Positions 6,086 to 25,008 of a DNA stretch of 64,000 bases are shown here, piece after piece. Under the pieces are notes generated by a model. That model was given only the letters and a program-made list of their open reading frames with translations. It ran no database searches and was not told where the DNA came from. This stretch comes from Thelephora terrestris (Eukaryota > Basidiomycota > Agaricomycetes > Thelephorales > Thelephoraceae): contig WIUZ02000002.1 of assembly GCA_015956445.1 (NCBI GenBank), positions 1,426,001 through 1,490,000 of the forward strand, read 5' to 3'. Position 1 is the first letter of the stretch. Every line of letters starts with the position of its first letter. The translations under genes were made by a program, and so were the position numbers.

Positions 6086-7306
6086 TCACTGTGCTCCTTT
6101 CCTCCTAGACTTGTTCGTTACACATGTTTGTTTTGTAATCCAACTTGGTTCCCCATTCTTGCGAAGTTTGAGTCGGCGATCTTTGAACGAAGGGTGTGAC
6201 AATCCTGAGATGACACGCTCAGGCGCAAACTTGTCATCGTATTCCAGTACGATTCTCTGCCAAGCATTTGGCTCGCGACAGATCCAAATTTGAATCGAGG
6301 CGCCAGTCGTGTTCCTGTGGATATAGAGATCACCGACTGTATAGTTGATGTTACGAGGCGGAACCGCGAGGTCACTTCCGCAGCGACTCTCCCACCAAAC
6401 TGTTTCCCCTTCGCTCACAGAAGATTGGAATTTACGGGCAGTCCGTGTCGGCAGGGGCATTTCCCCGCTCCGAGTGTCACTGGGAGGCATTGTCAGTAAG
6501 TGCCTATGCATTTAGGTATCCCACAAACATTGGCACAGCACGAGCGCGCGAGGACAGGTCATCCGGAACAGATTGTGTTGGTGATCTGAAAATGAAGTCA
6601 TCATTCGGACGGGCGGGAAGGATAAAACCAACCCTTCATTACCGCCTTGATTCATCTGTGACAATAAAGACTCCAGGATGACGGCAAAATTGGCGCCAAC
6701 CACCGGGGCCTCTCTGTTCGCGTTTAACAGATTCTTGATACCAGAGCGTACGTCATCGCCTTTCCGGAAATGATTGCGAGTCTGCCCAGTACCGGGAGTG
6801 TGATTCTCGGGAGCCTCGCCTTCATCCGACGACATTTCTTCGATCACGCCAGCATCTCCATCGGGGCGAAGGCGTTGGATGGGGACAGGTCGAAAAGTAG
6901 CGGTGTTTGCGTGTTCCGAGTTGGTGCCAGGCTTCTGGCTTGAGGACCCCCTGTCAGTCCGTTGGATCTGGATGATCTGAGTGACGGGGAGTGCACGAGC
7001 TGGGGATTCGGAAGCGAGTAGATCTTCCGAGGTGACATTGTCCTTTGGGTCCATAACCTGCTCGTCTTCGGACTCAGGAGAGAAATGAACTCTCCGATTG
7101 GCGGTGCGTCGACGAGATCCACGGTTGCCCGGAGAATAGCCCGAAGTGACCTCTGAAGCGTTGGCTTCAAGAACGATTGAGGCGGAACGGGAACGGGAAC
7201 GGGGGGGTGGACTGCGATTCTTTGACAGTCGGGCAGGTTTTGTCTGCGGATAAGGGCCAGCCTGTGCACTAAATCTGGAGCTGAGCTTCACCTTCGTTTC
7301 GTACAT
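6086..7306 (-). CDS. Uncharacterised protein with conserved 'GETVW' C-terminal domain (copy 1)
   Basis: Exon 1 (about 7306 to 6655) begins MYETKVKLSSRFSAQ and is Ser/Arg-rich and acidic, probably disordered. It ends near the donor in the GGCGGTAATG context. The last exon (about 6500-6089) holds a compact domain with SEGETVWWES, VGDLYIHRNTTGASIQIWI, VISGLSHPSFKDRRLKLRKN, GEPSWITKQTCVT and KSRRKG. The same domain occurs at 18401-18814 with GETVWYES, IGDLYFHKDRMTGNLQLWI, ALHPKFNDRLLKLRANGEPS and KSRKKG. Aromatic, glycine and charged positions are shared, which shows selection on the domain. I do not recognise a named family. The basic tail suggests nucleic-acid contact, but that is inference. 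Confidence 0.62.
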
Positions 7307-7714
7307 TTACAGAGCTCTGCACACCGTCGCGTGACTCTGTCCGCAGACACACTATGAGTCTCGTCTCTATCGAGACGGAATGAGAACCGCCTTCTGTCCG
7401 CTGCGGTCTTCGCCTAAGTTAGTAAATTGGTTCGAACACATAAGAAGATCTTTACCATACGAAGGTCTTTCCCTTCTGGCAAATCGAGATGGAAGGGGTT
7501 TTTTTTAGGGGACATACTTATGCGGGTGATAGACGGGTGAGGGAGATGTGTCGAAAGAAATCCGAGTGGCGTCAGGCTCAAGATCGATCAAATCATGGTA
7601 TCGCCGTGGCCTGGAATCGACCTGAGCGCTAGAACCCATGCACGCTAGGCCCAGATTTATTCCCACCCGATGAATACGATCATCATTTATATGGAAGGAA
7701 CCCCATGGGGGCGA
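7307..7714. other. Intergenic spacer
   Basis: Between the divergent edge of the GETVW gene and the 3' end of the transposase gene. It holds a short T/G-rich run near 7500 and no convincing ORF, RNA gene or transposon end. Confidence 0.5.
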
Positions 7715-8741
7715 TCAGAATACAGACAAAAGTAGTATATAGCTCGAGCGATCTTCTTCGGCTTCATACGGGGGACATGGCTGACAAATAACTTCATTCA
7801 ACTCCATCATTTTGAGCAGCTTCCTCAATGTCGGACATGAACTGACGTGTGGTTGAATACCCAGCGCAACAACAGACACCAGAAGTACGAACCTGATCAA
7901 GAGGGAGGGTGTGTACGCATGAGCGTTCTATCCCGAAAACCTTCCCAACACTGGTCTTAGCGATGTGTCCGAGAATCTGTGTAGGTGCGATGATAAGAGG
8001 GGTCTCCAGGAAAAGGTCGTAGAATAATTCCCCGCCGGCGAAACCCCACAATCGGTACGGGTCGTTCTGTTGGTCTTCGAGAGACAGCGGTGAAAACGTT
8101 TCAATTGAAAGGAGGACCGAGTGAATATCTGCCGAGCCTTCTGGCAAGAGGATTTGGTCGATGAAACCACTCCATATTTCGGCTCCATTCTCAAAAGTGA
8201 TATAGCTATCTCTAGCTGCAGCGTGTCTCGTCTGGAATGTAACACCGTGGATGATGATCTTCTTGTATGCCTTGATTTTCTGGCGATGGCTCGCGAAGAA
8301 GTCGACCCATTGCGCGGGCGCATTCTCTGCAGAAGTCACGGAAGAACTGAGAGCAGAATGCGTACGTTCATCCAGATGGATTACTCTGGGATTGCCTACA
8401 AGCTTCAGCCGTTGTCCAGGGTTCCTGAGATCGGAGAGGCGAGAGCCACGGCGGTTCTCACCCGTGAAGGATGCGAACGCGTTCAATAATCCCCCAACCG
8501 TGTCAGCTACGGCTTCATCTTTGAGGAGTACTTGAAGATTTGCGTTCCTACATGCGGTCAACAGGAATGTTTTTTCCATTTGACCTACAAGGCGAAGGGA
8601 GGTTAATTGCGATTTAGAGAGCTCGCGGTTGAGGAATTTACCGGGTCTGGCGTTTGTTTTCATCCTCTGCATCATGTAGTTTATTCTCTCAAACGCGAAT
8701 GTTCGGTAAGCGTGGAGCCCATTCAGCTACTTTTTCCCCAT

Positions 8742-12790: not shown

Positions 12791-15700
12791 GAAAAAGTAG
12801 CTGAAACCTGTGAAGCGTGAACGGGGCCAAACATTTTTAAGAAGTGTCCGAGATGGAGGGAAAGGTGGTGGTTTGGTTTGATGTCTGCATCTTTGTACAA
12901 CTCGAGGACACCGCTGATGTATGAAGAGATATGGTGGTCATAGAGGGCGATATATTCATCATTGGTGACACGCATGCTTGCAATGCGAACGGCTGTGACG
13001 AGATCCATAAAATTTGCAAGCATAGCTGTGTGTCGTTCATTGCTATCGTTCCATATCGAGATGAGGGATATGGGGAGGTGAACGGTACAAAGTACCCTCC
13101 ATTGGTCCGCACTGAGTTTTCCATGCTCAGTGGTCCCCCAGTTCCGTGGTGCTGGTTCGATCCAAGACGGCAAAACGGTCTTATCCATGTCCGATCGAAT
13201 GATGGCGAAGGTGTCCTTCCCCAAAACAGGAGTGCTAGCTTCCAATTCCACTGTATTCCCCTCTTGTGGGTTATCATCGGGACGATGGAAAGGCCTGCCA
13301 AGCTAAGGGGCCAGTCAGACACTCCAAAACGCTTCCATACTACATAACTCACAGCCGCAAAAAGCTTCTCGGCCAGGTCGAGCTTCTGCGATTTTCCGGG
13401 GTAGGAAACATGATTTTCGTCGCATAAAGCGCGTAGTACATCCTTGTTGAATTTGCGGAGACTTGCCACGGACGATCCGTGATCCCTCAATGTTTCTCGA
13501 GCCTGTTGAAGTTGGCCGAGATTCGAAGGGTCGATTGGCCGCAGAGGCGTAGGTGGGATCACCTGAACGTTGGGGCCGGGCAGTTCCTCGATCGATGGAC
13601 CGTGATTCGTACGCTGGGCGTTCTCAGAATAGAGTTTTCAAGCATTTTAGGAAACACGTACCCATTTTACAATTCTTCTTGCCAGCTTGTATTGATCGCC
13701 GTCCCTCCGAAGTCCATAATCAAAACAGATATACCAGAGAGCCGCACGAGACACACCCCTCTTGCACAACGTTTCAAGAAGCCTTGACATGTCCTCCTCC
13801 TTGCGGATGGTGTCCAAGAGGGAAGAAATGACCATGGCGTTTGGTCGATGGTGTAGTGCCTTTGGACGAAGTTCCCCATCTCCACCGTCGTAATCCGTGT
13901 GTATGCCCCATATGTTACGACAGTGATCTTGAATAAGCCCAAGGTATAGGTTATGCATAGAGTCTATGACCGTTGACAAAGAGGGGTTCCAATAGCGGAG
14001 CTCAAGCAGCGGTGACCACCGGATCTGGTGCGCTTCTTCAATCTTCTTGCGATCTCCGAGGGTGAGAGCGTCCTTCCAGAGCGTGGCATGTTCACGGTGT
14101 TGCATCGGATCGCGTTCAGGCCAAGGTTGCGCCAAAGTTTCGAGTTCGTGAGTGGTGATGAGACAGAAAGTGCATGGGCGGTATGAAGTAACGGAACGAA
14201 ATCCTGCAACCTGCCGAGCGGCAAGTGCGTCGGTGACGAGAACGGCGATGATGGACTTGCACGCTCGGCCGTTGGGATAATTGGCGGTTTTGCTGTACCT
14301 TACCCCATGCTCGTACAGGGGCGCAAATTCATCGACGATCAATTGGGTGAAATGGTTTATCTGCTCGTTCGATGGTTTCCCGGGACCCGGAATGACACCG
14401 GCGTGATACAAGTTCTCGGTTTTGTGTCGAAGGTGTGGAGGAAGATTTAGTAGGACCATGTTAATTCCCGTTGAGCTTATGGAATGTTTTGCAGTGACGT
14501 TTCCCAGGGGATCAAAGGAATCCATGGAGAGAGAGAATGCGTAGCGACCATCCTGCTTCATGTCGGGGGTGAAGAAGGGTTTCCGTTCATGGGTTGTTTG
14601 AGCGGAATCTGGAAACTCTCGCATGAACTTGGTGTCCCAGATGTCTTCGGTGCCATCCTTTTCGGTGAAAAGCCGATCGTAATCGTCAACGACATCCTCA
14701 ATCCCTGGATGACAGAGCATACTCGCAAGCCAGTGTCTAAAACTCTGGTGAGTATAGGTCTTAATCGGTACCCAGCAATCGCCGTCGTCGTCTCCTCCCT
14801 CCTCATCCGCTTCAGATCCAGAAAAGTTGCCGTCCTGATATCGGCCCCGTGTGGTTGTCTTGATGAGTCGTACTATAAGAGCGCTGCAGGGATCTGATTC
14901 CTCTGTTGGCTTATAGGTACACATTTTTTCGGTGGTGGTGAGAGGGTATAAAGCGTAACATTCGGGACACATGATGTATGTGGTCGTGATTGGGTCGAGT
15001 CGAAACATTTCTGTGACCGTGCGCGAGTCTCGTGGGAAGTTTTCAAGCTGTTCCGAAGGTACATTTGTGAGGCGAAGGATATCGCGTAAACTGGCGAGCA
15101 CCACATCTGTTTTCCGGCGAGAGAGGTTGAAAAGATACCGCAGGACAAGGATAAGAATCAGCAAAGCGTGGACGACTGGCAGCAATGTATACGTGTGTCT
15201 GGAATAATACATATCTAACAACCATCCTTCATTAAATCATTTGCAGGTAATGGGCAAGTTGGTCCTCACCAGAGATGATGAACGTATTGGGGTTGAGTTG
15301 AGCATACAGCTGCTTATTCCATTCATCCCCCTTCCTTCGGTCCAAGTGCCGCAAGGTGTCAAAGATTGTTGCCTTGATTGTTTCCACCTCAGACGCAAGC
15401 GTGTGTCCGCCTTCTGGCAGAAGCGTATTTAGGACATCTAGACACTCGACAAGAATGTACTCGTAGCTGACAACGGCTACGGAATCTATGTTGACGAGAG
15501 AGAGCGGGTGGTATGAGTTGGGTAACAGGAGTTGGCCGTCGACCCTCAGTTGGTAATGGTTCGAGACTTTGGTGGGTGGTGCGGTAAAAACAAGGGATGA
15601 AGGAAATTGGAAAGTTGCATGCTTTTGTGAAAGCAGGAGACGGATTCGACTGATTGAATCGATTTGGAACATTTGCGAAATGGCGATAGGATTGGGATAG

Positions 15701-19780: not shown

Positions 19781-21600
19781 CTAAATGCACAGCAATGGTG
19801 AGGACGAGAGCGCTAGCAAGGAAGGCCACAGCAGGGTGTACTGTAATCCTCCCTCGACCGGACCTACCCTCACAGCTCCTAACAACGCAGCTTCAATCTT
19901 ACTAGCCATCGCATCCATACCAAACTGAGTCCTCGCTCTCACCTTCGCCCGATGCGCTAACATCTTCCTCTCATCTACGCTCAGTTCCACAACATCGCGT
20001 AGGGTTTCCGCCCAAACCTCGGGATCTGGAGGTCGCAGCCAGCTGGTCTTCTCGATTTCCAGAGAATTTGCGACGCTTTCAGTAGGCCCGCCGGTGTTGC
20101 AAGCCAATACGGGCACCCCGCATGCCATAGCTTGCACCGGAACAATGCCGAGGTGCTCGTTAGTTGGTGTGTATAAGAGAGCAAGTGTCGACGAGGACGT
20201 TAGTAATGCGGATCGTTGAGAGGTGGTTAAGCTGAGTAAGAAGATCACATCGGGGATGTGACAGTTTTGTCGAACGGTGGCAAAGTGCCCGCCTTCTTGG
20301 ACGGAGTGAGGATGTGGTATGTGAGATTGCGTGTAGTGGCAATCTCGAGTAGGGTTTTGAGCGCGGAGACGTTGTCTTCCAGCCGAGGATCATATCCACC
20401 TGGCTTACCGTATTTAGCGAAGCCAGAGGAAGAAGCGACACCACTTACCTGCGAGGACCAGCCTCCAATTTTGTTTCACTGTAGCAGTGGCTTTGAACGC
20501 GGCGAATGCCTGTATAGCCAAGGCGACGTTCTTTTTCCGTTCAAAAAGGTTGAGAGATAAAAAGGTCAGACAGTCACTACCTTGGTCGTTCCGGTTGAGT
20601 TGCGGCAGTAGTAGCAGACCGAGTATTGGGCTTACGATCAAAGTGCTGCCACGTCAGGGTCGTTTTGGTCAACCACAACCTCGTACGCCGAGATGTTGAT
20701 CCCAGGGTGGACAACCGTTGAGCTGAAGTTTATGCTAGGAAAGTACGTTCTAAAGACTCGTACTGTAAATAGAGAGTTGGCGAGAATAACGTCGGCCTGG
20801 CCTGACACGAAGCAAACGGGCGACGTTGAGGGTGCAGAACACGAGAGAGCAACGTGGAACATACGGGTGGTCAACTCTTCCAAAAGATCCATGGGTAGCC
20901 TGTACAACCCTTTTAGCACACCGGCTTTCCACCTCCCCGACGGAGAACAAGTTCCCAAATTTCTTGGGGAATGTGTGATATATCTACTGGCACGATCTCT
21001 CGCTGATTGGCCGAGGCAGAATGCTTAGACCTGTCGCGGTTGTCAGCACGGTTAACTTCAAGTCGGTTAACAATCTCGAAGCGGCGTTCGAGCGAGGTGT
21101 CATGCGATTATAGAGCCGAGCCTCGTGGTAAAATGCTCCACATACTGCAGAGATGTCGAGGAAGATTCGCACGAGCACCATTTGCAAACACCTGGGTGAA
21201 AGAGTGGGGCGGAGAATAAGCTCACCTGTTGGTTGACTTCTTTCGTGCCAAGCGTTTGGCCTGTAAACTGGAGCTTGTGCCATGGCGAGGAGACGAGAGA
21301 GATGGAGAGGGAATGAAGGGGTGGTGACTATGGGTAGAAAAAGAGATGGAAGGGAGTGACTCGTGCCGAGCCAGCCACTCTCTGCGGACAAGCGGAGGGA
21401 GCATCTATCGACGCTCGAGAGTGACTGAACGACACGAACAACGAGGTGTGGTGCGATCGGTGTGATCACGCCCGAAGGGGACGTCAAGTGTGTGCGATGG
21501 AAATTGACGTTCGGGTAGAGGAGCGGGAGGTGCCGGTCACTGGGCAGGGTCGTGGTCCCTAGATCAACAAGGACTAGGGCCGGCGAGCGGCAGCACCCGG
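19781..21600 (-). pseudogene. ALG2: ALG2-type alpha-1,3/1,6-mannosyltransferase, decayed copy
   Basis: ALG2 adds the second and third mannose to the dolichol-linked N-glycan precursor on the cytosolic ER face. Diagnostic blocks on the minus strand are VLKGLYRLPMDLLEELTT, then after an intron ADVILANSLFTVRVFRTYFP, VVHPGINISAYE, LTFLSLNLFERKKNVALAIQ, YDPRLEDNVSALKTLLEIAT, LLTSSSTLALLYTPTNEHLG and IVPVQAMACGVPVLACNTGG followed by PTES, the GT4-type nucleotide-sugar binding site. A one-base frameshift separates FDKTVTSP from DVIFLLS near 20262. The N-terminal region (21.0-21.6 kb) shows only scattered traces of the expected opening in different frames. ALG2 is essential in yeast, so an intact copy is expected elsewhere. 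A sequencing error cannot explain the N-terminal decay. Confidence 0.82.
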
Positions 21601-22187
21601 GACCGTGGAAAGGAATCTCAGGTGGGTACATAGATTGACGTAGCTACGAGTCGAACATCGTACACAAGGTGGCGGCAGCTGCAGTTGGATCGGCAAGCTC
21701 AACCTGGTCAAGTGTCTATACAATCTGACCCGAGGATGATGTCAATGTCCCCCATATTGTTTGATTGAATAGGGGGACTCCGGGGAGGGATCGCAACCGC
21801 TACTACATAAGACTGAGATCGATTGATCTGGGGACTGGCAACCCGCCTTGGCTGCGCGTGCTCATTTGAAATTGGCTCCCCAGTGAGAAGTCCTCCGGCT
21901 TCCTCTGGTCAATTTTCCAGCCCGTCCAAAGTGCATGCGTCGGATTAGATACACGGAAATAATATGTGGCGTAGCCGTGCATCGATTTGATCACGCAATA
22001 GCAGTCATGTGACTCTGAGAACTACCACGTGACTGTGCCACTTGGTGCCTTTTCTGCGGGACGGAGGCTAATGGAAAAACTTTAAGACCCAGGACTTACA
22101 GTCCCGGGAATTTCAGTCCTTTGCCGTCGCCTCTCCTCTCGACCGTCTCGCTGTCACCTGTCAACCATCTCGTTCTTTTCTAAATCT
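21601..22187. promoter_or_regulatory. Probable upstream region of the H3-mimic gene
   Basis: No gene seen. The last 80 bases (about 22100-22187) are pyrimidine-rich (CCGTCGCCTCTCCTCTCGAC), as is common just upstream of basidiomycete start codons. No TATA box stands out. Confidence 0.35.
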
Positions 22188-23895
22188 ATGGCCAGAACAA
22201 AACAATGTGCGAAGAGGTCGACGGGGGGCACGTCCACCCATTTTCCGCTCAACCCACCCGGATCTCCCCCAGTTGTCCCCCCATCTTCGTTGCCAGAGCC
22301 TCTCCCTGAAGCTCCTCCCCGCGAACCTTCGATCCTGTCAACCACGCCGCCTCCTTCCGCTCAACCCACACAAGTCAAGATTAAGTCGGTGCGCCTCATA
22401 GTGAAGGAACCGGCGAAGAGCGGAAGCAGATCCCAGGGTGGCGACCATGTGCGTAAACCCATCGCTACTTTGGTCACTCTCAACTTTCTGACCATTTGAC
22501 AGTGGTGTTCGCTGTGCAACGACGGCGGAACACTCCTTGTCGAATGCAGCACTTGCTGGCGTTCGAATTGCTCCGCGTGCATCCCTGGAATCACGGAAAT
22601 CGATGAAGACTCGTTCAAGTTCCTGAACTACCGCTGTCCTGCCTGCCATGGAAGACGACAGCGATTTTACGTGCGTTACCAACAACTTTCACAACTACCA
22701 GACCCTGACTGCCACGATAGGGCCTTTATCAAGGCGACCAGCCCTTCTTCCCCGAAGGCATGCTAATTTCCGAGACGGCCAAATCTGGCCATGGAACCCG
22801 AATCAACAGCAGCCCTCTCGTGATCTTCGAACTGATCCTGGACACCCTTTACAAGGAAGGAACTCCTGCAAAGGCGCTGCACATGCACATGAAGGCCGCG
22901 TTTGCGTCGAACCCCACGGACCTCAAGCTCATCACCTGCGCGTTCGACATCGACCCCGAAAAGACAAAGACCCACCAGACCAGGATGAAGAGGCTTGTGA
23001 AGGGCCTGAATAGGTGAGCACCAGGGCTCAACCGTCGTCACAATCGTGCATACCCAGTGCTGACATATCCCTAGTGGGAACTTCGAACGCATCGTGCTAA
23101 TCATTCAGACACATACGGACAAGGGACATGGTGGCTTGATGTACCGTGGGGATGGAGAGAGTTCCACGTCGTTGAGCTGTGGAATATCCCATGTGAGCAC
23201 TACCCGTTTTTCACAATTTTGCTTCCTTCGCGCTGATCAGCATCAAGTTTTTTGAATCTGTCATCAGCTCGGATCTCCAGGAGTATATCTCGGGGCGCAA
23301 GTATTCTCTGATGGTTCTGGCTGCTTGCGGCTATTTTTTCGACTTCCCTGATGCCCGAGAAGAGCTTCGGGACGCCGTGAACAGGTATGTATGGCCCGTT
23401 TTTTTAGATCAATTACTGACCATACAACCTTGCTCCCACTATTGCAGGTTCAAATTCTGTGATGCGTTCGCCTTTTCCGACCACGGTCTGGACCCGACCC
23501 GCCTCAACCCCTTTATCAACGAGTTCGCAACCGATATCCTGATCACTGGCCACCAATCCGCTGCCTCACTCCCGCTCATCCTATCCTCCTCCTCCACCAT
23601 CCGTTATACCGGGATCCTGCACCTCATGCAGACCGAAACAGGAGTCGCGATGAAGCACTACCAACGCTTCGACCCTACCTCTCGGCCCAGCGGCAGCAGG
23701 TTCCCGCAACAGTGTTCACGGTGTCGCGCTTACCGGCCTTGGAGGGTGCCTTCTCCAGCGAAGAAGAAGTGCAACAAGAGCCAGATGTTCAAATGCAAGT
23801 CGAAAAAGTGCAAGGGTGTCTTCGAGGTTCGCCGTCAGAAGGGATATCGGCCGTTGCCCAAGGATTACGCAAAAATATATCACGCTTTGATTTGA
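22188..23895 (+). CDS. Histone H3-tail mimic / PHD-like finger / putative caspase-fold protein
   Basis: Exons by eye: 22188-22448, 22503-23013, 23075-23192, 23248-23384, 23448-23895. The N-terminus MARTKQCAKRSTGG copies the histone H3 tail (ARTKQTARKSTGG), keeping K4 and the STGG motif. A Pro-rich linker follows. Exon 2 opens WCSLCNDGGTLLVECSTCWR and SNCSACIPG and ends YRCPACHGR: a PHD-like finger with Cys where His is usual. Further on come ERIVLIIQTHTDKGHGGLMY and YSLMVLAACGYFFDF, a His then Cys after beta-strand-like stretches, as in caspase-like or CHAT folds. The C-terminus has CSRCRAYRPW and a basic Cys tail (CKSKKCKGVFE). The expected site of action is chromatin. In exon 2, KAT (about 22733) and FFPEGMLISETAKSGHG (about 22745 on) lie in different frames, so this copy has a one-base shift or a sequencing error there. 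Confidence 0.72.
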
Positions 23896-24055
23896 CTGCT
23901 CATCATGTATTCATCATCTACGTCTTTACCCAATGAATCTGCAATGAATACAAAATGTTTCCCCGATGCGGTTTGCCCAAGGTTTGCCTGTTCCATAGGG
24001 TTCATGTTCCGGTTGCAGCGAGTTGCAAAACAATAGACATGTTTTTAAAAAGGCA

Positions 24056-24240
24056 GGACAGTTTTTCTTTACACTGTGACATATAAACAAAGATATCTGA
24101 ATTTAAAATCGGACATATATCAAACCTGGTGTCGACGGATGGTGCGGTGGGACGTCAAACCGCGGAGAGCGTTCAGTTGAGGGGGCCTCAGGCTCGAATC
24201 TTTGTTTATGTGTCACCGTGTAAACAAGAAAAAACGGTCC
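24056..24240. mobile_element. Small MITE-like inverted-repeat element
   Basis: The left end GGACAGTTTTTCTTTACACT continues to ATAAACAAAGAT (about 24056-24094). It is matched in reverse complement by ATCTTTGTTTATGTGTCACC to AACGGTCC (about 24199-24240), about 40 bases with a few mismatches and a small indel. No clear target duplication is seen. No coding capacity. Confidence 0.6.
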
Positions 24241-24377
24241 TATTTTTTACAATAAAAAAACACGTCTATCCGCTCTCACGTTCCTCTCACTCGGCCGCCA
24301 ATCCACGGAGCGCTCATGAGGAGCCTCATGGTGCCGATCGCGATCAACTCGGTTATGGGTTGAGATCCTTCCTCAAC

Positions 24378-25008
24378 GGCGTCGCTCTCGCGTCGGAGGA
24401 ATGCGTCCATCTGTGTTGGCGCTATCGGCTTCACAGATGGTCGCAAGGTAAGGGGACTGCCTATCCACCGACGAAGCTCTCTCGTCGATGGCAGTTCCCT
24501 TTTGCCACTGCGGGCTCTGGGGGATATTGCCTCACTAACGACGTTGCTCTCGCGTCGGAGGAACACGTCCATCTGTGTTGGCGCTATCGGCTTCACAGAT
24601 GGTCGCAAGACAAGGGGACTGCCTATCCACCGACGAAGCCTCTCTCGTCGATGGCAGTTCCCTTTCACAACAATGTGGTCATTGCCACTGCGGGCTCTGG
24701 GGGATTTGCCTCACTAACGACGTTGCTCTCGCGTCGGAGGAACACGTCCATCTGTGTTGGCGCTATCGGCTTCACAGATGGTTGCAAGGTAAGGGGACTG
24801 CTTATCCACCGACGAAGCTCTCTCGTCGATAGCAGTTCCCTTTTGCCACTGCGGGCTCTGGGGGATATCACCTCACTAACGACGTTGCTCTCACGTCAGA
24901 GGAACGCGCCCATCTGTGTTGGCGCTATCGGCTTCACAGATTGTTGGACAAGGGGGCTGCCTATCCACCGACGAAGCCTCTCTCGTTGATGGCAGTTCCG
25001 TTTCATAC
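24378..25008. repeat. Tandem repeat, four units of about 160-180 bp
   Basis: Units begin near GTCGCTCTCGCGTCGGAGGA, at about 24380, 24541, 24721 and 24881. They contain CATCTGTGTTGGCGCTATCG and GGCTTCACAGATGG. Unit 2 carries a 20-base insert (AACAATGTGGTCATT region) relative to units 1 and 3. Unit 4 is partial and more diverged. ORFs across it are shadows of the repeat. Confidence 0.85.

Follow-up and report, generated by a model that had tools for sequence, protein, structure and literature searches.

This analysis identified, at positions 22188-23895 of the window (the whole 64-kb stretch of DNA that was analysed), a predicted gene that encodes a protein with an N-terminus resembling the histone H3 tail, and whose relatives in the same genome lie in dispersed repeats beside a TET/JBP-like gene. 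It is proposed, with a probability of roughly 0.5, that this gene family consists of accessory genes of mobile elements, the products of which mimic the H3 tail against silencing and carry a putative thiol-enzyme core. The copy in the window is then a lone, diverged, intact copy among ordinary genes, a stranded or domesticated relative of the copies in the repeats. Against the proposal stand an enzyme fold that is unsupported by the tests run, the weak tail of one paralogue family (b), and the lone state of the window copy, which may be a relic.

The window gene is real, as a predicted gene of six exons on the forward strand, and encodes 474 aa without stops. Its MARTKQ start, at 22188, is the first in-frame ATG past a stop, in a frame that opens at 22086. 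Exon 1 (22188-22448) encodes the H3-tail-like N-terminus (22188-22229) and a Pro/Ser-rich linker that closes the exon (22230-22448). A PHD-like finger with eight invariant Cys, one of which replaces the usual His, is encoded in exon 2 (22503-22670), and the first part of the core domain in exon 3 (22721-23013). Exon 4 (23075-23192) contributes a hydrophobic stretch and the invariant His254 in a TH[TS]D motif (codon 23112-23114), exon 5 (23248-23384) a further hydrophobic stretch and the invariant Cys307 in an [AS]CG motif (codon 23326-23328), and exon 6 (23448-23895) the end of the core domain and a C-terminal C4 zinc-ribbon-like motif (C415, C418, C442, and C447). The introns are GT-AG, with AAG at the fourth acceptor as in paralogue family c, and all five lie in identical alignment columns and phases in the window gene and in the two paralogue families, b and c. 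Next to it lie a minus-strand gene of glycosyltransferase group 1 and, downstream, a WD40 gene.

When this genome of 40.6 Mb was searched for relatives, at least seven copies of family b and at least four copies of family c were found, the products of which are 50 % and 26 % identical to the window protein, respectively. With the seventh b copy as the reference, the other six show 97.7-99.8 % identity to it over the gene. The 492-aa frame of family b is whole in six of seven copies, the remaining one being interrupted by an insertion, and the 495-aa frame of family c is whole in three of four, the remaining one being cut short. Fragments or fossils of the gene are also present at C4:280-287k, C56:2470k, C56:646k, and C12:160-163k. 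The predicted proteins form a new protein family, for which scans of Pfam, NCBIfam, and PADLOC gave nothing under E 0.05. Prokaryotic or viral relatives were not confirmed by tblastn in 77 stretches from genome_contigs and 27 from viral_contigs that had been picked out by pattern (two short peptide patterns per scan).

The solitary state of the window gene could be read as that of a decaying element relic without function. It stands alone, without partner genes, since neither a TET-like nor a large-frame partner was found in its 64 kb, and a fossil relative (L039) does exist; no other copy in the genome exceeds 64 % DNA identity to it. However, a 474-aa frame over six exons with GT-AG introns has been kept, as have both Cys clusters and the His/Cys pair, and there is strong constraint on the protein relative to family b. 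Between the window gene and family b there are 0.32 non-synonymous differences per site, whereas synonymous differences, at 0.76 per site, are near saturation, and the protein is therefore constrained. A functionless relic is considered highly improbable.

The N-terminus of the window protein, MARTKQCAKRSTGG, is identical to H3 at 11 of 14 residues. Its best ungapped BLOSUM62 score against residues 1-14 of H3 is 57, while its first 60 residues, shuffled 5,000 times, score 31 at most, and it is the top match in a six-frame scan of 127,604 bases made up of the window and seven further loci. The H3-tail start claimed in the earlier note is thus borne out. A Pfam scan found no histone family in the window protein, and hence no sign of a histone fold.

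That relatives also begin in this way holds for some of them. The tail of family c, MVKRRKNTARKSVGG, scores 44 against H3 1-14, and that of the fossil L039, which begins MARGKCTTRKTIGG, scores 41; in neither case did any of 5,000 shuffles reach the score. In family c the start codon is uncertain, as the frame is open upstream and has an earlier ATG. In family b the likeness is weak and displaced by a preceding insert, with KKNTAKKTNGG at residues 28-38 and a score of 29-33, depending on the H3 stretch, that 7-26 of 5,000 shuffles reached; against H3 1-14 the score is 29, with 26 shuffles as high. The tail of a fragment on C56 is not significant (score 19; 130 of 5,000 shuffles as high). The H3-like stretches of the relatives thus read NTARKSVGG, NTAKKTNGG, or, in the fossil, as given above. 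In ungapped alignments, the window protein, family c, L039, and family b all have Lys at the place of K4 and GG at 12-13; K9 is matched by a basic residue in all of them, and S10 by Ser or Thr. The window tail has Cys at T6 and K-R for R8-K9; because L039 and family c retain T6 and R8-K9, the Cys6 and the swapped K8/R9 of the window tail look derived.

Likeness of this sort has to be weighed against chance. A second H3-like start at window position 19795 (MVRTRALARKATAG), antisense to the glycosyltransferase gene, scores 41 and was rejected as a chance match. With that score as a caution, the weak tails of relatives count only because they are N-terminal in homologous proteins; isolated weak H3-like tails prove little. 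Across the genome, the pattern T-A-R-K-S-x-G-G occurs at nine sites, four of them c copies, four beside histone-fold matches, and one (on C58) directly behind a stop codon, and the reversed control at none. MARTKQ occurs at seven sites, three beside histone-fold matches, one in the window gene, and three at other loci (reversed control, none). Two of these three other loci were translated further on and neither is H3-like there; MARTKQ by itself is not diagnostic. Judged over its whole length, the H3-tail likeness of the predicted window protein is beyond chance, and it recurs in relatives.

The tails are also rich in Lys and Arg, and it could be that the H3-like start is mainly a basic tail for nuclear import or DNA binding, in which case the protein would be a non-enzymatic accessory factor of the element that binds DNA or chromatin, with a structural His and Cys. 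This is somewhat unlikely. Nothing would oblige a merely basic tail to retain the order T-A-[RK]-K-[ST]-x-G-G that is seen in b and c, and the window tail keeps the same order, with Cys for Thr and with K8/R9 swapped.

The PHD finger is defined by eight ligands, Cys4-His-Cys3, at characteristic spacing. The finger of the family has the spacing C-x2-C-x9-C-x2-C-x4-C-x2-C-x18-C-x2-C, which agrees with that of PHD fingers, and all eight Cys are invariant in the three full-length sequences (window, b, and c). In all three the fifth ligand is Cys, not His. ADD-type fingers likewise have Cys at the PHD His position. With a profile of the three sequences, PHD chains of DPF3, ubi-d4, and MLL made up eight of the 13 matches, at E 0.11-0.91, with two unrelated matches scoring better and no ADD domain among the 13. 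An AlphaFold prediction for the finger exon, from a contiguous piece of the window, was too poor for use (mean pLDDT 47.5). The PHD-like finger of the earlier note stands as far as the spacing and the eight invariant Cys are concerned, although its ligand set departs from that of PHD fingers. 'PHD-like' is a fair label for this putative finger, its membership of the PHD family being no more than possible.

In the core, the evidence comes from conservation. The three full-length family proteins have 13-17 His and 16-18 Cys each, yet only one His, H254, is invariant across them. Thirteen Cys are invariant, eight in the finger, four near the C-terminus, and C307, which is the sole invariant Cys outside these two clusters. 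H254 and C307 are the residues that had been named in the earlier note, and no relative lacking the pair was seen, as it is present in all three sequences. Each is preceded by a hydrophobic stretch, and in the window protein they are 53 residues apart; the strand ahead of C307 is deduced from hydrophobicity alone. The His stands in IQTHTD in the window protein and in TH[TS]D in all three, and the Cys in VLAACG in the window protein, with AACG in the window protein and b and LSCG in c. The pair fits a putative catalytic dyad. The order of His and then Cys, each after a hydrophobic stretch, with the Cys after Ala or Ser, is shared with caspase-like peptidases (C14 and CHAT), in which the catalytic Cys usually comes after Ala.

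The caspase or CHAT fold that had been suggested was not supported. In caspase-like peptidases of clan CD (C14 and CHAT), Gly follows the catalytic His, whereas in all three family sequences H254 is followed by Thr or Ser. A Pfam scan gave no family for either of two proteins, and hence no peptidase and no methyltransferase family; across the three family members it gave only a stray Zn_ribbon_9 match at 0.25. For family members there was no match in NCBIfam and a single stray match, at 0.08, in PADLOC, and a PDB profile search listed no caspase among ten matches. With HHalign, the family matched CHAT (nine sequences) at E 0.092, a score reached by three of 60 shuffles, and C14 (eight sequences) at E 0.39, reached by 26 of 60, whereas the control comparison of CHAT with C14 gave 4.2e-5. 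In the match to CHAT, the His stretch of the family is paired with the stretch around the CHAT Cys instead of with that around the CHAT His. Similarity to these peptidases is thus not above controls, and caspase or CHAT membership is rejected. The family profile is thin, at three sequences, and because of this a profile miss is not proof of absence. An AlphaFold prediction for exons 5-6, which included an in-frame intron and lacked the His exon, was too poor for use (mean pLDDT 34.8).

For the non-enzymatic accessory factor, these results cut both ways. It would be consistent with 12 of the 13 invariant Cys falling into two zinc-like clusters and with no enzyme family having been detected. However, one invariant His and one invariant Cys outside the clusters, both after hydrophobic stretches, suit catalysis better. 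The putative enzyme of the core would probably be a thiol protease or a related hydrolase.

The union of tail, PHD-like finger, and invariant His/Cys in one protein would also allow a chromatin-sensing protease, as the earlier note had supposed, in which the finger holds the protein's own H3-like tail and a caspase-like domain stays inactive as long as no real H3 tails compete. The ADD domain of DNMT3A and ATRX resembles the finger in having Cys at the PHD His position, a feature that lends this idea some support, and in its link to the H3 tail. There is also a precedent in DNMT3A, whose methyltransferase domain is blocked by the ADD domain unless the latter binds the H3 tail (PMC10393158). 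Unlike DNMT3A, the window protein has no methyltransferase family in Pfam, and the weak matches of the finger profile include PHD chains but no ADD domain. The searches gave no support for a caspase-like fold, and self-inhibition of this kind is considered unlikely, at about the level of the decaying relic.

The carriers of families b and c support the proposal of a mobile-element accessory gene. The b and c copies sit on dispersed, near-identical repeats at unrelated sites. The b repeat is about 20.9 kb long, with flanks that differ; its ends were taken from two copies, C12:709767-733976, less an insert of 3.3 kb, and one on C1. It contains the family b gene, a TET/JBP-like gene, a large frame, and, near one end, an integrase fragment (rva_4, 7.4e-21). 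The c repeats have a TET-like gene that is 63 % identical to that of the b repeat and a large frame related to that of b (26 % over 303 aa, 8e-17); the large frame, at L040 903-2687 and in the b repeat, has no Pfam family. No terminal inverted repeats of the b repeat were found, and visual inspection of the ends from the two copies showed no obvious target-site duplication; the case for mobility therefore rests on the dispersed near-identical copies and their differing flanks.

A TET/JBP-like gene lies within 6 kb of the family gene, on the same strand, in 10 of the 11 b and c copies, the exception being the cut-short c copy on C14. Conversely, a search of the genome with the TET-like protein gave 17 matches at 12 places, and 11 of these have the family gene, whole or in part, upstream on the same strand at a distance of up to 6 kb (exception, C4:1076.8k). 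The fossil L039 likewise retains a piece of the TET-like gene. The TET-like protein has an HxD...H...R motif, in which HxD is HRD or HTD. A two-sequence profile of it matched the Tet-like dioxygenase structures 5cg8 (2.4e-5) and 4lt5 from Naegleria (3.5e-5), as well as CcTet (0.11), and Pfam Tet_JBP was matched at 0.06-0.077, under the family cut-off. By its motif and its similarity to TET, the predicted neighbour gene of the relatives would belong to TET/JBP. A PF12851 search at 0.001 gave no locus in this genome, nor a match in any control genome. TET/JBP-like genes with HxD lie at L040 6988-7596 and in the b repeat (L047 and L050).

There are at least 125 KDZ transposase matches in this genome. 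A KDZ transposon as the carrier was rejected, as all of the matches listed are more than 20 kb away from each of the 11 copies of b and c. Iyer and co-workers reportedly described KDZ and TET in fungi in 2014.

In the proposed mechanism, the protein would be nuclear and would expose its H3-tail-like N-terminus, which host readers or writers of the H3 tail, directed at K4 or K9, would bind or modify. The H3 machinery of the host would be drawn away by the tail or brought to the His/Cys core. The PHD-like finger may hold the protein on chromatin or on its own tail. Whatever the tail or the finger brings, be it the H3 tail or a silencing factor, would be acted on by the core with His254 and Cys307. 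In the related repeats, the H3 mimic and the TET/JBP-like dioxygenase could jointly reverse silencing by histones and by DNA methylation. Mobility, nuclear action, tail binding, enzyme activity, and a role against silencing are what we infer for the family; anti-silencing by mobile elements is suggested because the relatives sit in dispersed repeats beside a TET/JBP-like gene. A more specific form of the proposal, in which the protein is an H3-mimicking thiol protease of a mobile element, paired with a demethylase-like enzyme, and uses its tail, as a bait or a gate, in finding and cleaving host silencing machinery or H3 tails, is doubtful and quite unlikely as it stands.

TET-type enzymes on fungal transposons and imitation of histone tails by viruses are known already. 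The repeats resemble the fungal transposons with TET/JBP dioxygenases (PMC12730594), in that the dispersed repeats with relatives of the window gene also contain a TET/JBP-like gene next to these. According to that paper, the TET/JBP-bearing fungal transposons encode no additional protein for further modification, and the PE type is marked by HxE. Because the TET-like protein described here has HxD, not HxE, assignment to the PE type was rejected. In that paper, PHD, caspase, and peptidase are absent and histone occurs four times, in other senses. Plant VANDAL elements and their VANC proteins (PMC10398659; PMC5735166) offer a likeness of another kind, as accessory proteins of DNA transposons that counter epigenetic silencing. 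Unlike the protein with the H3-like tail described here, VANC is described as sequence-specific, and the opening lines of the two abstracts make no mention of histone mimicry.

Viral and cellular histone mimics have been reviewed (PMC10208167) and candidates for H3K9 mimicry listed (PMC10611923), although one such claim, for a viral ARKS protein, has been contested (PMC10833455). The likeness lies in an H3-tail-like stretch on a non-histone protein. In contrast to the viral and cellular mimics, the stretch described here is N-terminal, extends to up to 14 residues, and occurs together with a zinc finger and a His/Cys core, in a family associated with dispersed repeats. Among the best matches in open-licence full-text literature, a collection with few subscription papers, titles and abstract openings gave no account of H3-tail mimicry linked to fungal transposons. 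If the proposal is true, a gene family of mobile elements pairs an H3-tail mimic with a TET-like enzyme. This would provide a testable system for the ways in which selfish DNA counters silencing based on histones, as well as a new protein family whose thiol-enzyme fold may itself be new.

The DNA around the window gene is itself repetitive in part. Just 5′ of the gene, pieces of 21562-22113 recur at C22:48972-49791 (79-95 %), and several further sites match in part; the window gene itself is absent from the matches listed there. Just 3′ of the gene, and outside it, is a MITE-like palindromic repeat (24012-24270) with many genomic copies (69-85 %). Beyond it lies a 162-bp tandem array (24375-25005), in which stretches of 52-57 bases match the arrays of a related repeat at 82-85 %. 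At the locus L045, tandem arrays of about 103 bp, inverted with respect to each other (1168-1607 and 6713-7790), flank the family b gene and have short matches to the 162-bp array. Elsewhere in the window, a Transposase_21 (tnp2) frame lies at 13650-15236 on the minus strand (E 3e-11), and the segment 8752-12755 is mirror-like, with 45-bp, 27-bp, and CTAAC telomere-like arrays followed, after about 860 bp, by GGTTA, 27-bp, and 45-bp arrays in inverted order.
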